Shown here piece by piece: positions 11,543 through 29,328 of a DNA stretch of 33,804 nt. The stretch comes from Synechococcales cyanobacterium T60_A2020_003 (GTDB lineage Bacteria; Cyanobacteriota; Cyanobacteriia; RECH01). The stretch lies in contig JACYMB010000128.1 in NCBI GenBank assembly GCA_015272205.1, forward strand, positions 1-33,804, in the 5' to 3' direction. The position numbers were made by a program, and so were the translations under genes. The notes under the pieces are model-generated. The model did not search any database. It saw nothing but the letters and a program-made list of their open reading frames with translations, and was not told the origin of the DNA. Position 1 is the first letter of the stretch. Each line of letters begins with the position of its first letter.

Positions 11543-11612
11543 TTACAGGGGAGTTCTCCGGAGGGCGATCGCTCTGGTTACAGGGGAGTTCTCCGGAGGG
11601 TGATCGCTCTGG
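11543..11612. repeat. 35-base tandem duplication containing HIP1
   Basis: Two copies of a 35-base unit (TTACAGGGGAGTTCTCCGGA then GGGCGATCGCTCTGG) lie head to tail at 11543-11577 and 11578-11612. The second copy differs at one base, which turns the HIP1 octamer GCGATCGC into GTGATCGC. The unit also contains the palindromic core TTCTCCGGAG. It lies in non-coding sequence upstream of hisC. Confidence 0.8.
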
Positions 11613-11841: not shown

Positions 11842-11849
11842 TTGTATTG

Positions 11850-12200
11850 GGCGTTGCGCGGGTCGAGGTAATTGAGCGGCAGTCAGAGACCTTTGAGGTG
11901 TTGCCGAAGCGGTGGATTGTCGAGCAAACGTTTGGGTGACTGAATCGATTTCGATGGCTAAGCAAAGACCATGAGGTGTATTCAGAGGTGAGTGAAGCGA
12001 TGATATTGAATCCGACTCGCAAAGTAGCACTATTTCAGAGCCCCCTCCCAACTTTCCCTTGCTCTAGACGCGAGGCGGATTCCCGTAGGGTAGGGGAGGT
12101 GCCGTCAGACGCCGGGGTTCAGTGTCACCCTATAGCAGGATTCCGTATGATTTATGACTCCTTAATGTGCTTAATGCTTCGACGTTTAACAGCGGCTTAA
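11850..12200 (+). pseudogene. Decayed IS5-like transposase C-terminus
   Basis: From 11862 the frame reads VEVIERQSETFEVLPKRWIV, then EQTFG, a stop, and LNRFRWLSKDHEVYSEVSEA. This is the conserved end of an IS5-group DDE transposase in which a TGG tryptophan codon has become TGA (11937-11939). The last conserved piece, MIYDSLMCLMLRRLTAA with a stop at 12198-12200, continues in the same frame only after 147 extra bases (see 12005-12146). The N-terminal two thirds of the gene are missing, so it cannot make transposase. Assignment rests on recognised motif order (LPKRWxVExTFGWLNRxRRLSKDxE). Confidence 0.75.
12005..12146. mobile_element. Small MITE-like insertion inside the transposase remnant
   Basis: The 142-base segment is flanked on both sides by ATGAT (12000-12004 and 12147-12151), consistent with a five-base target duplication. 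Its ends are imperfect inverted repeats: ATTGAATCCGACT against ACGGAATCCTGCT (9 of 13). The interior has CCCCTCCC and GGGGAGG stretches that can pair. It has no coding capacity. Removing it and one ATGAT restores the transposase codons A-M-I-Y. Confidence 0.6.
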
Positions 12201-12226
12201 GATTTACTTTATAAACTAGCTCCAAC

Positions 12227-12294
12227 TTTTCCACAGTCCATCGAAAGTTTTCCACAGCCTCATAAGTTTTCCACAGCCCTGTAAGTTTTCCACA
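12227..12294 (+). other. Array of four identical DnaA-box-like 9-mers
   Basis: TTTTCCACA occurs at 12227-12235, 12248-12256, 12267-12275 and 12286-12294, all in the same direction, with starts 21, 19 and 19 bases apart. Most copies are preceded by AAG. TTTTCCACA is the form of DnaA box reported for cyanobacterial origins. It lies in non-coding DNA between the IS remnant and ndhF3. No dnaA or dnaN is nearby and no boxes occur on the other strand, so a DnaA-binding site is plausible but an origin is unproved. Confidence 0.55.
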
Positions 12295-12681
12295 ACTTCT
12301 TTCAAAATCTAGGGCTTGGTGTAGTAGATACTCAGGACAGCGTGCTGATATCAGCAAAAATTTTAGCTCAGTGAGCAGCCAATTGCTCACTGCATAAGAC
12401 CTCAAAACCTTTTGCCAGTAAGCGATACAGGCAATTCACAGCTACCATTCCGTGCGTTTGATAAGAAATTTCTTGAGCAGTAATCAGAAATTTTAGCTAA
12501 CCCAGACTCACGTAGATGCCCTTTAAAGGTTAATCTATTACGTATAGGCTTTTAGTGATGCAAATCTAGTTCTTGATAGATTAACCCGTCGTCGGTGGTC
12601 GATTACACCACCTTGGGGTGTTGGTTTTTGTGTCGCTATCAACGTCCAGGCTTTAGCGTCCATTTTATTGCTGGGTATACC
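12295..12681 (+). promoter_or_regulatory. Upstream region of the CO2-uptake operon with 11-base inverted repeats
   Basis: The 387 bases before the ndhF3 ATG contain no gene. The clearest structure is GGTTAATCTAT (12528-12538) and its perfect reverse complement ATAGATTAACC (12576-12586), with centres 48 bases apart. In model cyanobacteria this operon is controlled by the LysR-type repressor NdhR/CcmR; paired arms on a helical spacing could be such an operator, but the arms do not obviously match the published NdhR motif. The promoter probably lies between or just after the arms. Confidence 0.45.
12369..12392. repeat. Perfect short palindrome upstream of ndhF3
   Basis: CAGTGAGCA and TGCTCACTG form a nine-base stem around a six-base loop. 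No T-run follows, so it is not a standard terminator. It could be an operator or part of the DnaA-box locus. Confidence 0.5.
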
Positions 12682-14544
12682 ATGAATCTGCTTTTTGCAC
12701 AGACTGCATGGCTCATTCCATGCTATCCGTTAATCGGAATGCTCCTATCGGCATTATGGTTTCCGTCGATTATTCGCCGGACAGGGCCTAGACCTGCGGG
12801 TTATGTCAATTTTGTAACAACGTTTCTTGCCTTAATCCATGCTGTGTTGGCCTTTCCGTCTCTTTGGAATCAGCCTGCACAAACACAGGTCATTTCCTGG
12901 TTACAGGTTGCGAATCTAAATCTGTCGATCCCGATTGAGGTGTCTAGCGTTACGCTAGCCGCCTGTATCGTCGTTACAGTCTTGAATTTACTAGCACAAA
13001 TCTATGCCATTGGTTATTTGGAAATGGATTGGGGCTGGGCACGCCTATTCTCGCTGTTGGCGATGTTTGAAGCGGGGATGACGGCTCTGGTGCTGTGTAA
13101 TTCGCTGTTCTTTAGCTATATGATCCTTGAGGTTTTGACCTTGGGAACCTATTTGCTGATCGGCATTTGGTTCAATCAACCGCTCGTGGTGACTGGCGCA
13201 CGCGATGCTTTCTTGACCAAGCGAATTGGGGATTTGTTTTTGCTGATGGGGGTTCTAGCGTTATATCCCCTTGCCGGAACCTGGAATTTTGATGACTTGG
13301 CAATCTGGGCTGCTACCGCAGACGTGAACCCAACCGTCATGGCGTTGGTTGGACTGGCGTTGATTGCAGGCCCGATGGGGAAATGCGCTCAGTTTCCGCT
13401 GCACCTGTGGTTGGATGAGGCCATGGAAGGTCCGGTGCCTAGTACTGTTCTGCGAAATTCTGTGGTTGTCGTGACTGGGGCATGGGTATTAGTCAAATTG
13501 GAACCTGTGCTGGCCTTATCTCCTTTTGTGATGTCTGCCACGATCGCCATTGGAGCCTTGACCGCATTGGGTGGTGTTTTGATTGCGATCGCCCAAATTG
13601 ACATTAAGCGATCACTTTCGTACCTCGTTAGCGCTTACATGGGGTTAGTATTTATTGCGGTTGGTGCGGGTTACCCTGGTATTGCGCTCTTTTTGTTGCT
13701 GCCCTATGCCCTGTCAATGGCGCTTTTGGTGATGTCTACAGGCGCGATCGTTCTCAACTGCATTACCCAAGACTTGACTCAGTTGGGTGGTCTGTGGAAA
13801 ATTCGCCCGATTACGGGAATCAGCTTTTTAGTCGGTGCAGCGAGCTTGGTCGCCTTCCCTCCCTTGGGCGGATTTTGGGGACTGTATCCGTTAGTGGATA
13901 GTCTGTGGTCAAGCAGTAGAGCCTTGATGGGGATTGTGTTAGTGGTTAACGGCTTGACAGCGTTTCAACTAGCACGGGTGTTTGGTCTGACGTTTGGAGG
14001 CAAGCCTCAGCAAATGACCGAGCGATCGCCTGAACCCCTTTGGCTGGTGGTGATGCCGATGACACTGCTAGTCGGATTTGCTTTGCACTTACCTCTGATT
14101 CTCAATTCCTTGGGACTGTTGCCCGACTGGACGGTGCTGAGTTCCGTTGCGGGAACGCTGTTGGTTTGGTCAACTCTGTTGGGGGCAGCCGTAGGGGCGT
14201 ATGTCTACCTAAGTCCTTCGGTTCCCAAGCCTGTGCAAATTCCAGTACCGACGTTCCAAAATTTGCTGGCCTACGATTTCTACACCCCCCGAATCTATCG
14301 GTCTACGGTGGTGGGTGGTGTAGATATCCTGTCTCGGATTATTGACTGGTGCGATCGCTATTTTGTCGATGGATTTGTAAACTTCGTCGGCTTGGCATCG
14401 CTCTTTAGCGGCGAGGCGCTGAAGTACAACAACACCGGAAAAGCTCAGTTCTACGTCTTTACGATTGCGGTCGGTTTATCGGTCATCTTGGCCATGGTGA
14501 GTATTCCTTTTCTCTCTGAGTCCCCGTTGCTTGCGGCTCCTTAG
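12682..14544 (+). CDS. ndhF3: NDH-1 subunit NdhF3 (CO2-uptake type)
   Basis: This is a 620-residue polytopic membrane protein, an antiporter-like proton-pumping subunit of the specialised NDH-1 complex. Typical features are many membrane helices, the charged segment DAFLTKRIGDLFLLMG, the PMGKCAQFPLHLWLDEAMEG motif with its key lysine, PVPSTVLRNSVVVV, and IAQIDIKRSLSYL. The frame is open from 12595, but I start at the ATG at 12682, where the first hydrophobic helix begins. It heads ndhF3-ndhD3-cupA-cupS, and the neighbours (cupA and a fasciclin-type cupS) identify the inducible, high-affinity NDH-1MS form rather than the constitutive NdhF4 type. Confidence 0.9.
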   Translation: MNLLFAQTAWLIPCYPLIGMLLSALWFPSIIRRTGPRPAGYVNFVTTFLALIHAVLAFPSLWNQPAQTQVISWLQVANLNLSIPIEVSSVTLAACIVVTVLNLLAQIYAIGYLEMDWGWARLFSLLAMFEAGMTALVLCNSLFFSYMILEVLTLGTYLLIGIWFNQPLVVTGARDAFLTKRIGDLFLLMGVLALYPLAGTWNFDDLAIWAATADVNPTVMALVGLALIAGPMGKCAQFPLHLWLDEAMEGPVPSTVLRNSVVVVTGAWVLVKLEPVLALSPFVMSATIAIGALTALGGVLIAIAQIDIKRSLSYLVSAYMGLVFIAVGAGYPGIALFLLLPYALSMALLVMSTGAIVLNCITQDLTQLGGLWKIRPITGISFLVGAASLVAFPPLGGFWGLYPLVDSLWSSSRALMGIVLVVNGLTAFQLARVFGLTFGGKPQQMTERSPEPLWLVVMPMTLLVGFALHLPLILNSLGLLPDWTVLSSVAGTLLVWSTLLGAAVGAYVYLSPSVPKPVQIPVPTFQNLLAYDFYTPRIYRSTVVGGVDILSRIIDWCDRYFVDGFVNFVGLASLFSGEALKYNNTGKAQFYVFTIAVGLSVILAMVSIPFLSESPLLAAP

Positions 14545-14629: not shown

Positions 14630-16123
14630 ATGCTCAGCCTCTTAATTGCTTTGCCCATTGTGGGCGCACTTGGAATCGGGCTTATGCCCCAGTCGGTATC
14701 AGCAGCTCGCCTGCGTCTGATCAGTATGGCGATCGCCGCTCTGACGTTACTCTGGACGATTTGGTTGATGATCCACTTTGATCTCAGTCAGCCGCTCTTC
14801 CAGTTTGAGGAACATCTGCCTTGGCTGCCTGCGTTGGGATTGGATTATCAACTGGGTATGGATGGTCTATCCCTAGTTTTGGTTGCGCTCAATAGTTTGC
14901 TGACGTGGGTTGCACTGTACAGCACCTCTCACACCATCGAGCGTCCTCGCTTGTTCTACTCGATGGTGCTGCTTGTGTCCGGCGGCGTGGCTGGAGCATT
15001 CTTGGCGCAAAACCTCCTCCTCTTCTTCTTGTTCTATGAATTGGAGCTAGTGCCTTTTTATCTGCTGATTTCAATCTGGGGCGGCGATCGCCGCAACTAT
15101 GCGGCCACCAAGTTCCTGATTTACACAGCGTTTTCAGGAATTTTGATTCTGGCGTCGTTCCTGGGAATGATTTGGTTCACGGGGTCTAGCTCTTTCAACT
15201 ACACCGCCCTGATGGGGCAAACCCTGCCGATGGGCTTGCAGCTTCTCCTGTTGGGCGGGTTGATCGTCGGCTTTGGCATCAAGATCCCCCTCGTTCCCTT
15301 TCACACCTGGTTGCCCGATACCTACGTGGCCGCATCGACTCCGGTGGCAATTCTTCTGGGTAGCGTGCTAGCAAAACTGGGTGCCTACGGTATTTTCCGG
15401 TTCGGTTTGGGACTATTCCCCGAAGCGTGGGCACAAATTTCACCCATCCTGGCGATTTGGGCATCCGTTAGCATCCTCTATGGCGCAATGGCGGCGATCG
15501 CCCAAAAGGACATCAAGCGCATGGTGGCCTACAGTTCAGTCGGGCACATGGGTTACATCCTGCTTGGTGGGGCGGCCTTGACCACCCTCAGCGTTATCGG
15601 TGCTGTTTCGCAAATGGTGGCGCATGGATTGATCTTGGCACTGCTGTTCCTGCTCGTGGGCTTAATTGAAACCAAAGCGGGTACGCGGGAACTAGACGTA
15701 TTAAACGGATTACTGAACCCGATTCGCGGCTTGCCTGCGGTCAGTGCGCTGTTGATTGTTGGCGCGATGGCAAGTGCAGGCATTCCCGGATTAGCCGGGT
15801 TCGTCGCAGAGTTTCTGGTGTTCCAGGGAAGCTATGCTACGTTCCCCATTCCCACGTTGTTGGCGGTGATTGGCACCGGACTCACAGCCGTCTATTTCGT
15901 GATTCTGTTGAACCGTGTTTGCTTCGGCAAATTGGACAACAAGCTGGCCTACTATCCATCGGTGAAGCTTGCAGAGAAGGTTCCAGCGCTGATCCTGGCG
16001 GGTCTCATTTTCTTTTTGGGCGTACAACCCACTTGGTTGGTGCGCTGGAGTGAGTCTACGACGACAGCGATGGTGGCGGCAGTGCCTCCGGTAACCACGC
16101 AGGTTGCCGCAAATCGCCTTTAG
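14630..16123 (+). CDS. ndhD3: NDH-1 subunit NdhD3 (CO2-uptake type)
   Basis: A 497-residue membrane protein of the NuoM/NdhD antiporter family. Visible are LGLDYQLGMDGLSLVLVALN, the glutamate-bearing ELELVPFYLLISIWGG, FGIKIPLVPFHTWLPDTYVA with its lysine, and IAQKDIKRMVAYSSVGHMG. With NdhF3 it forms the distal membrane arm of NDH-1MS and helps couple ferredoxin-driven electron flow to CO2 hydration. It starts 85 bases after ndhF3. Downstream, a Nudix gene on the other strand separates it from cupA. Confidence 0.93.
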   Translation: MLSLLIALPIVGALGIGLMPQSVSAARLRLISMAIAALTLLWTIWLMIHFDLSQPLFQFEEHLPWLPALGLDYQLGMDGLSLVLVALNSLLTWVALYSTSHTIERPRLFYSMVLLVSGGVAGAFLAQNLLLFFLFYELELVPFYLLISIWGGDRRNYAATKFLIYTAFSGILILASFLGMIWFTGSSSFNYTALMGQTLPMGLQLLLLGGLIVGFGIKIPLVPFHTWLPDTYVAASTPVAILLGSVLAKLGAYGIFRFGLGLFPEAWAQISPILAIWASVSILYGAMAAIAQKDIKRMVAYSSVGHMGYILLGGAALTTLSVIGAVSQMVAHGLILALLFLLVGLIETKAGTRELDVLNGLLNPIRGLPAVSALLIVGAMASAGIPGLAGFVAEFLVFQGSYATFPIPTLLAVIGTGLTAVYFVILLNRVCFGKLDNKLAYYPSVKLAEKVPALILAGLIFFLGVQPTWLVRWSESTTTAMVAAVPPVTTQVAANRL

Positions 16124-16674: not shown

Positions 16675-17982
16675 ATGGTAACTGCAATTCCGGCTCCTTC
16701 CACAATCATTCCCCCCTCTCAGCATCCCTATGCCGACATTATTCATCGCCTAGAGGCGGGCGGATCGATGCTGCCCGATACGCCAGAGAATCTAATGCAG
16801 ATCATCGGCATCTACAAAGCCTATGCGGTGCCGATGGACTTCTACTGGCGCGATCTGCTCTACATTGCCGAACGGGTCTTTTTGAATCCAATTCCGGCCT
16901 TTAAATATTTCCTGCCCCAAGAATACCTGGACTTGCACAACCACTATGCTGGCGATACAGCTGACCTCCGCATTTGGCGCGGAGAAGCCACCGCTCACCC
17001 GGAATTGCTAGAGTTCATGGAAAAGGGAGAGCTGAAGCGTAAGTTGCCGAAGCTGGTTCACCACCTCTGGCACGATCGCATCAACATGGAATTTGCTGAA
17101 GCCTGTATGCAGGCAATGTTGTGGCACCGGAAGATGTATGCGCCTCACAATCGGTTTGATGCGTTCCTGGAAACGGATGAGTATCGCCAGAATTGCGATC
17201 GCGCCATCAAAGCCTACTTCAAGAAGAATCCGCTGATGTTGGGGCTATACAAGCTATTCCCCGATATGTTCATCGAACAGGTGAAAATGCTCTCCTACTA
17301 CTCCAATCTGGGGTTATTCTGGGAAGTAATGACACCCGTCTTTTTCGAGATGTCGGATATCTACGACGAGGGTGGATTTAAAGGCGTACCCGATGCAATG
17401 AATTTCCTGATCAATGGAATTTTTGCGATCGCCGGACGCCCCATCTATCACCACGTCTACATCGATGGGGAATGCTTTGAAATTATCCCCAAAGACAAAG
17501 GGTTTATGTGGCTCTATGATGCTGCATTACCTTATGTAGAAGCAGTCTTCTACCGTACCGCCCCCTTCCGAGGCACCAAGTCCTACAACGCCCAGGCAGG
17601 TCAAGTTCCCGATGATCAGAAAGACTTCCACTACGGCATTCTCTACGCCGATGTGTTCCCGGTAGGTAGCGCTGGCATTCCACCCACACTGCTGATGCAG
17701 GATATGCTCCACTTCTTGCCTCCCTATCTCCTGGAGTATTACCAGAAGCATTGCCGGGGTGAGGACGATATGTTGATCCAGTTGGGGATTACCTTCCAGC
17801 GATCGATGTATAACGTGACGTCAGCCGTTATCCAGGCATTGCGGACGGCCTTACTCTATCCCTTAGATGACACGAATCCTGAGCATTTGATGGCGAACCG
17901 CAAGTTCTACGAGGCTCAGATGGATCGGTTCCTGCGTCCAGAGGCTCGTCTCAGCGATATTCAAAGTCAGGATTATCGTTAG
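16675..17982 (+). CDS. cupA: CO2 hydration protein CupA (ChpY)
   Basis: This 435-residue protein belongs to the ChpX/ChpY (CupA/CupB) family, which converts CO2 to bicarbonate on the NDH-1 membrane arm. Recognisable are YADIIHRLEAGGSMLPDTPENL, MDFYWRDLLYIAERVFL, and VHHLWHDRINMEFAEACM at about 128-145; the His130 and Arg135 in this last stretch are the residues I recall as placing the zinc site in the cryo-EM structure. It is soluble in overall character. CGGAG lies upstream of the ATG. NdhF3 and NdhD3 upstream and CupS downstream place it in NDH-1MS. Confidence 0.93.
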   Translation: MVTAIPAPSTIIPPSQHPYADIIHRLEAGGSMLPDTPENLMQIIGIYKAYAVPMDFYWRDLLYIAERVFLNPIPAFKYFLPQEYLDLHNHYAGDTADLRIWRGEATAHPELLEFMEKGELKRKLPKLVHHLWHDRINMEFAEACMQAMLWHRKMYAPHNRFDAFLETDEYRQNCDRAIKAYFKKNPLMLGLYKLFPDMFIEQVKMLSYYSNLGLFWEVMTPVFFEMSDIYDEGGFKGVPDAMNFLINGIFAIAGRPIYHHVYIDGECFEIIPKDKGFMWLYDAALPYVEAVFYRTAPFRGTKSYNAQAGQVPDDQKDFHYGILYADVFPVGSAGIPPTLLMQDMLHFLPPYLLEYYQKHCRGEDDMLIQLGITFQRSMYNVTSAVIQALRTALLYPLDDTNPEHLMANRKFYEAQMDRFLRPEARLSDIQSQDYR

Positions 17983-28731: not shown

Positions 28732-29328
28732 ATGGCGATCGCATCTCAGTTTATGACCTTAGAGGACTACCTTCACTACGATGACGGTACCGCTACTCAC
28801 TACGAACTGGAGGACGGAGAACTGTTACGTATGCCGCCAGGAAGCGATCTAAATCAACGAGTAGCTTCTTTTTTGTTTGCCGTTTTGGTGCGGATGGGGA
28901 TTCCGTTCTACCGCATCCGGATTGGAGCGGAGATCGTTGTGAGTGGTGCACGGGCAACGGTGCGAGTTCCCGATTTGATGGTGTTGTCCGAGGAGTTGGC
29001 GCAAGCGCTGGAGGGGGCAAGCCGTTCGACGGTGACGCTGGATATGCCGCCGCCGCAATTAGTGGTCGAGGTGGTGAGTCCGGGGAAGGAAAACGAAGAC
29101 CGGGATTATCGCTACAGGCGATCGCAGTACGAGTCGCGGGGCATTGCCGAATACTGGATTGTGGATCCCAGTCGTAAACAGGTGACGGTGTTGCGCTGGG
29201 TCGAGGGTTTGTATGAGGACGAAGTATTTACCGGAGATGGGGCGATCGCCTCTCCGCTATTGTCCGAGTTCAACCCAGGTGCAGTCTTAACCGCTGCCCA
29301 AGTGTTACAGATTGAAGCCAACGCCTAA
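28732..29328 (+). CDS. Uma2-family (DUF820) restriction-fold nuclease
   Basis: The second Uma2 protein of the window has 198 residues from the ATG at 28732, which has GAGAGG about eight bases upstream; an ATG at 28711 is possible. Family landmarks are MTLEDYLHYDDGTATHYELE, VRVPDLMVLSEE with the active-site aspartate, PPPQLVVEVVSPGKENEDRD, and RRSQYESRGIAEYWIVDPSR. These match the PD-(D/E)XK-fold pattern. The sequence differs clearly from the copy at 1812-2384, so it is not a recent duplicate. Function in the cell is unknown. Confidence 0.87.
   Translation: MAIASQFMTLEDYLHYDDGTATHYELEDGELLRMPPGSDLNQRVASFLFAVLVRMGIPFYRIRIGAEIVVSGARATVRVPDLMVLSEELAQALEGASRSTVTLDMPPPQLVVEVVSPGKENEDRDYRYRRSQYESRGIAEYWIVDPSRKQVTVLRWVEGLYEDEVFTGDGAIASPLLSEFNPGAVLTAAQVLQIEANA

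Follow-up and report, generated by a model that had tools for sequence, protein, structure and literature searches.

A phased same-strand array of DnaA boxes beside a cyanobacterial CO2-uptake operon, a candidate DnaA-binding element outside the origin

We find that a 33.8-kb stretch of cyanobacterial DNA (hereafter the window, contig C128 of genome G000) carries four exact copies of the DnaA box on one strand at steps near 21 bp, and that arrays of this kind recur across cyanobacteria, often on the 3' side of guaA. We consider the evidence about evenly balanced on whether the four boxes form a DnaA-binding array outside the origin, belonging to a class of helically phased TTTTCCACA arrays with all boxes on one strand that titrate or otherwise control DnaA. 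In S. elongatus, control of replication runs through DnaA (PMC6478999), and the dependence on DnaA has shifted in the course of cyanobacterial evolution (PMC7198777). A conserved, small, deletable array of this kind would make it possible to test directly, in model strains, how polyploid cyanobacteria keep DnaA activity in check.

Results

Four exact boxes in an intergenic tract

The 9-mer TTTTCCACA, which is the published cyanobacterial DnaA box (PMC4674748), occurs four times within 68 bases of the window (12227-12294), always exactly and always on the + strand:

12227..12235, + strand, DnaA box 1 (TTTTCCACA), exact match
12248..12256, + strand, DnaA box 2 (TTTTCCACA), exact match
12267..12275, + strand, DnaA box 3 (TTTTCCACA), exact match
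12286..12294, + strand, DnaA box 4 (TTTTCCACA), exact match

The box starts are spaced by 21, 19 and 19 bp, and TRF reports a period-19 array with bounds of exactly 12227-12294. Same-strand clusters of four in 68 bases are expected 1.8e-12 times per window and 2-3e-10 times per 4.02 Mb genome. The whole genome holds 48 exact copies of TTTTCCACA compared with 25 of the reversed control, and one further exact copy in the window lies on the − strand at 13793, within ndhF. The array is intergenic, its sole overlapping ORF being a mechanical 91-aa TTG ORF on the − strand, and the surrounding segment (12200-12320) has a GC content of 38.8%, against 52.5% for the window. The original prediction had described four identical 9-mers of the cyanobacterial DnaA-box form, in one orientation and at 19-21 base spacing, as far beyond chance and as lying in an AT-rich, non-coding locus next to a palindrome at 12369-12392, and all of this agrees with what we measured. 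The similarity extends beyond the 9-mers, with AAG preceding the box in units 2-4 and GCC following it in units 2-3, and units 2 and 3 are identical at 16/19 positions. Rfam searches of the window and four array loci gave no match, and a tRNA search of the window found none.

Phased arrays across cyanobacteria

Using the pattern box-N7-16-box-N7-16-box on one strand, with exact 9-mers and steps of 16-25 bp allowed, we found a same-strand TTTTCCACA triplet in 145 of 390 cyanobacterial genomes, and the reversed-pattern control gave zero. The 63% of sampled genomes with no exact triplet, among them the whole dnaA-bearing family f2, are counted by an exact 9-mer definition that misses degenerate arrays. 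We then took 122 loci, comprising 120 search matches and the two of G000, and annotated their neighbours by ORF clustering and Pfam searches of representatives. About half of these loci come from the first part of the match list and the rest were picked by hand, with many near-duplicates skipped, and the related genomes behind the counts are not independent.

The most frequent single address is the 3' side of guaA (44/122 loci, a sample fraction and not a class frequency since the loci were picked non-randomly), where the array lies 80-1137 bp past the guaA stop codon and guaA always points at it; guaA was identified from Pfam GATase and GMP_synt_C in one representative. The wider guaA neighbourhood, marked by guaA, CbiD, cation-efflux, DUF3122 and other recurrent neighbours, accounts for 59/122 loci. 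Arrays adjacent to dnaN make up only 9/122, and a second type, with 20/122, is found upstream of a DUF2811 gene, hemJ (UPF0093) or a PPO-like oxidase. The remaining 34 loci, with the window array among them, were assigned to none of the guaA, dnaN and DUF2811/hemJ/PPO groups. Among the 41 guaA loci for which a left gene was called, a simple ORF heuristic has both flanking genes converging on the array in 26, which places these arrays away from promoters. In complete genomes the non-dnaN arrays are far from dnaN and their distance to oriC varies; comparing coordinates by eye, we saw no constant distance between array and dnaN.

At the 113 non-dnaN loci, 221/248 steps measure 20-22 bp, or two helical turns, and the steps outside this range mostly reflect extra boxes 10-12 bp apart. 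The window array, at 21/19/19, is at the short edge. A G precedes the box in 73% of cases class-wide and a G follows it in 73%; in the window, boxes 2-4 have the G before and boxes 1-3 the G after. The window array shares with the class at least three exact same-strand boxes at steps near 21 bp, and it lies outside the guaA neighbourhood.

The second array type belongs to a longer conserved element, composed of CAATTCTTAT, TTTTCCCCA, CCACA and three TTTTCCACA boxes mostly 22/21 bp apart, after which come GGGGATT and a GTAAAG-N4-GTAAC-like stretch. This last stretch resembles the RpaB HLR1 motif read on the opposite strand. The element was noticed at loci L009 2600-2800 (G000 C295:11600-11800), L052, L058, L062, L067, L070, L076, L086 and L089, and in many genomes it stands upstream of DUF2811 and a hemJ or PPO-like gene.

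Arrays and the presence of dnaA

Cyanobacterial DnaA binds the box-bearing oriC in vivo (PMC7198777, PMC6478999). We identified 13 dnaA-less genomes, defined as at least 90% complete and with DnaA-model hits either absent or all weaker than 1e-7, and 12 of them have no array. The thirteenth, G300, has a perfect 21-bp tandem, TTTTCCACAAACTCTGTTACT, at C2:18150-18200 (L069 8001-8051) on a 26.7-kb contig, and this tandem may represent plasmid iterons. Array absence is associated with dnaA absence at a Fisher p of 0.038, or of 0.010 without G300, p-values that ignore phylogeny, that come from genomes read off listings by hand and the second of which was calculated after the G300 result had been seen. 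Family f35 points in the same direction as this count, with no array in G149, which has no dnaA, and one array each in the dnaA-bearing G327 and G373. Separately, a phased array is present in G163 (L073), a near relative of PCC 7002, a strain that does not need dnaA (PMC7198777).

Surroundings of the window array

The array lies between an insertion sequence remnant and an operon for CO2 uptake:

11849..12222, + strand, IS5-like insertion sequence remnant, recognised by similarity to a second copy at C334
12001..12150, MITE-like multicopy repeat of ~150 bp inside the IS remnant, recognised by own-genome matches
12369..12392, 9-bp inverted repeat with a 6-bp spacer, CAGTGAGCA-GCCAAT-TGCTCACTG, seen in the sequence
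12528-12538/12576-12586, 11-bp inverted repeat GGTTAATCTAT/ATAGATTAACC, nearer the ndhF gene than the 12369-12392 palindrome
12683..14544, + strand, ndhF3-type gene (Proton_antipo_M/N)
14630..16123, + strand, ndhD3-type gene (Pfam Proton_antipo_M)
16675..17982, + strand, cupA/chpY-type CO2 hydration protein gene (Pfam ChpXY, 3.9e-161)

The IS remnant consists of the 3' end of a transposase with an in-frame stop, followed by the probable right end of the IS, and its match to DDE_Tnp_1_2 (E 1.9e-5) is slightly under the curated cut-off. The C334 copy matches 11849-12004 and 12147-12222 of the window, and the similarity stops four bases short of box 1, at 12222. The MITE-like repeat between these two segments is partly self-complementary, has ~20 matches in its own genome and is flanked on either side by ATGAT, and the C334 copy represents the empty site with a single ATGAT. 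On the other side of the array, the inverted repeat at 12528..12586 is a candidate LysR-type regulator site for the ndhF3 operon, as judged from its sequence. The likely start of ndhF3 is the ATG at 12683 and not the GTG at 12595 where the called ORF begins, because in many relatives the alignment sets in only near residue 30 of that ORF.

Each of the sister genomes (G001, G002, G003) has the guaA array, and the position of the window array is not conserved in them. In G000 there is no exact box near guaA (C159:6177-7133), and allowing one mismatch yields just three scattered one-mismatch boxes across C159:4000-12000. G000 has two arrays of at least three boxes, the window array and C295:11634-11685, the latter being of the second type by sequence. 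Gene order also differs between these genomes, since guaA and dnaN are ~20 kb apart on one contig (C159) in G000 and on different contigs in G002, where guaA is on a 325-kb contig, 89 kb in from its nearer end. The IS end abutting the array, together with the MITE-like insertion, makes it plausible that IS activity relocated the array. It is likewise plausible, by an argument from complement only, that the window array is a relocated copy of the guaA array or a local replacement for it.

Discussion

If the window boxes are a DnaA-binding array, DnaA molecules would sit next to one another along a single face of the helix at two-turn intervals, and could form a head-to-tail assembly. Such an assembly might titrate DnaA, or promote its inactivation or its reactivation, and by analogy with known systems the array would keep initiation at the dnaN-linked oriC in step with growth. 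In G000 it would act from beside an IS end upstream of ndhF3 instead of from guaA. Titration of DnaA, as put forward in the original prediction, is supported as one candidate among these activities. Several observations weigh against a DnaA-binding array of this class: most sampled genomes (63%) have no exact triplet, the window steps are at the short edge, the sister genomes do not share the position of the window array, and in complete genomes the distance to oriC varies.

Several systems of DnaA control bear comparison with this arrangement. In E. coli, datA stimulates hydrolysis of DnaA-ATP and the DARS sites release ADP from DnaA (PMC5742627), and both are non-coding box clusters that are harmed by transcription through them (PMC5010248). 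Like the arrays on the 3' side of guaA, datA is a non-coding box cluster off oriC, intergenic and downstream of genes (PMC5742627), and the window array is likewise a cluster of DnaA boxes in a non-coding region away from oriC. DARS1 and DARS2 have a core of three DnaA boxes at fixed spacing (PMC5742627), as do the cyanobacterial arrays, but DARS box I is inverted relative to boxes II and III whereas the window array is all on one strand. Both datA and DARS2 require IHF, and datA needs an IHF site along with its boxes. In Bacillus subtilis, removal of all six DnaA-box clusters (DBCs) leads to early initiation (PMC5295017). The DBCs, like the window array, are chromosomal clusters outside the origin; they differ from the cyanobacterial arrays in that the latter have three or four same-strand boxes with two-turn phasing and often lie on the 3' side of guaA.

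Among the open-access papers listed by our literature searches, we saw no description of non-origin DnaA-box clusters of cyanobacteria. More tentatively than for the window array itself, and as a reading that we hold to be somewhat doubtful, we suggest that an as yet undescribed chromosomal element for DnaA control is shared among cyanobacteria. This element, a phased same-strand box triplet usually past guaA, would be datA/DARS-like with a head-to-tail geometry of its own and would have moved beside ndhF3 in this lineage. If true, a DnaA array outside the origin whose favoured location is past guaA would extend datA-type control to another phylum.

The window array could instead be a recent local tandem expansion, or a relic moved by the IS, with no present function. 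The near identity of units 2 and 3, the IS end that abuts the array with a MITE-like repeat inside that IS, and the lack of conservation at this place in the sister genomes would all suit such an origin. However, the four 9-mers are exact while their spacers differ, so the boxes look selected, and similar arrays occur class-wide with fixed phasing. We regard a functionless array as unlikely.

It is also conceivable that DnaA, or another reader of the same 9-mer, is a transcription factor for ndhF3-ndhD3-cupA, and DnaA control of this CO2-uptake operon had been proposed at the outset. The array is intergenic, ~390-460 bp ahead of the likely ATG of ndhF3, and the arrays upstream of DUF2811/hemJ/PPO genes mean that promoter-side arrays do exist. 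Against this, the upstream regions of 74 related ndhF3 genes, 73 kb in all, contain one exact TTTTCCACA in total, the ndhF3 loci in the three sisters contain no exact box, and >230 bp separate the 3' edge of the array from the LysR-like inverted repeat downstream of it. The region upstream of ndhF3 aligns well with that of 14 relatives only at the start codon. A conserved ndhF3 operator is not supported by these comparisons. Because related ndhF3 operons lack upstream boxes and, across the class, assigned arrays are mostly found beyond the 3' ends of genes and not in promoters, the case for operon control is weak, and we consider this role improbable for the window array.

The chromosomal origin of G000 (403 contigs, 95.6% complete) has a different location and form. 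Its dnaN is found at C159:27505-28647, and six exact TTTTCCACA boxes on both strands lie just upstream (28811-29003), a dnaN-linked cluster that is the published arrangement of cyanobacterial oriC (PMC4674748); the dnaN loci of the sister genomes have exact boxes on both strands too. The window array uses the same TTTTCCACA box (PMC4674748) but has neither boxes on both strands nor an adjacent dnaN. Although its 19-21 bp repeats in an AT-rich intergenic tract are of the kind that led to its earlier proposal as a replication origin, we think it very improbable that it is either a chromosomal origin or a set of plasmid iterons, since the position of dnaN, the check suggested with that proposal, puts oriC on C159, and a scan of 20 window proteins turned up mainly chromosomal ones (psaL, ndh, Mur ligase, carA, homoserine dehydrogenase) and no member of a Rep or Par family. 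Within the 33.8 kb of the window, the GC skew has no distinct turning point where the array lies.

Elsewhere in the window, short tandem repeats at 11543-11612 and 221-313 contain GCGATCGC or near-GCGATCGC motifs, which are HIP1-like.
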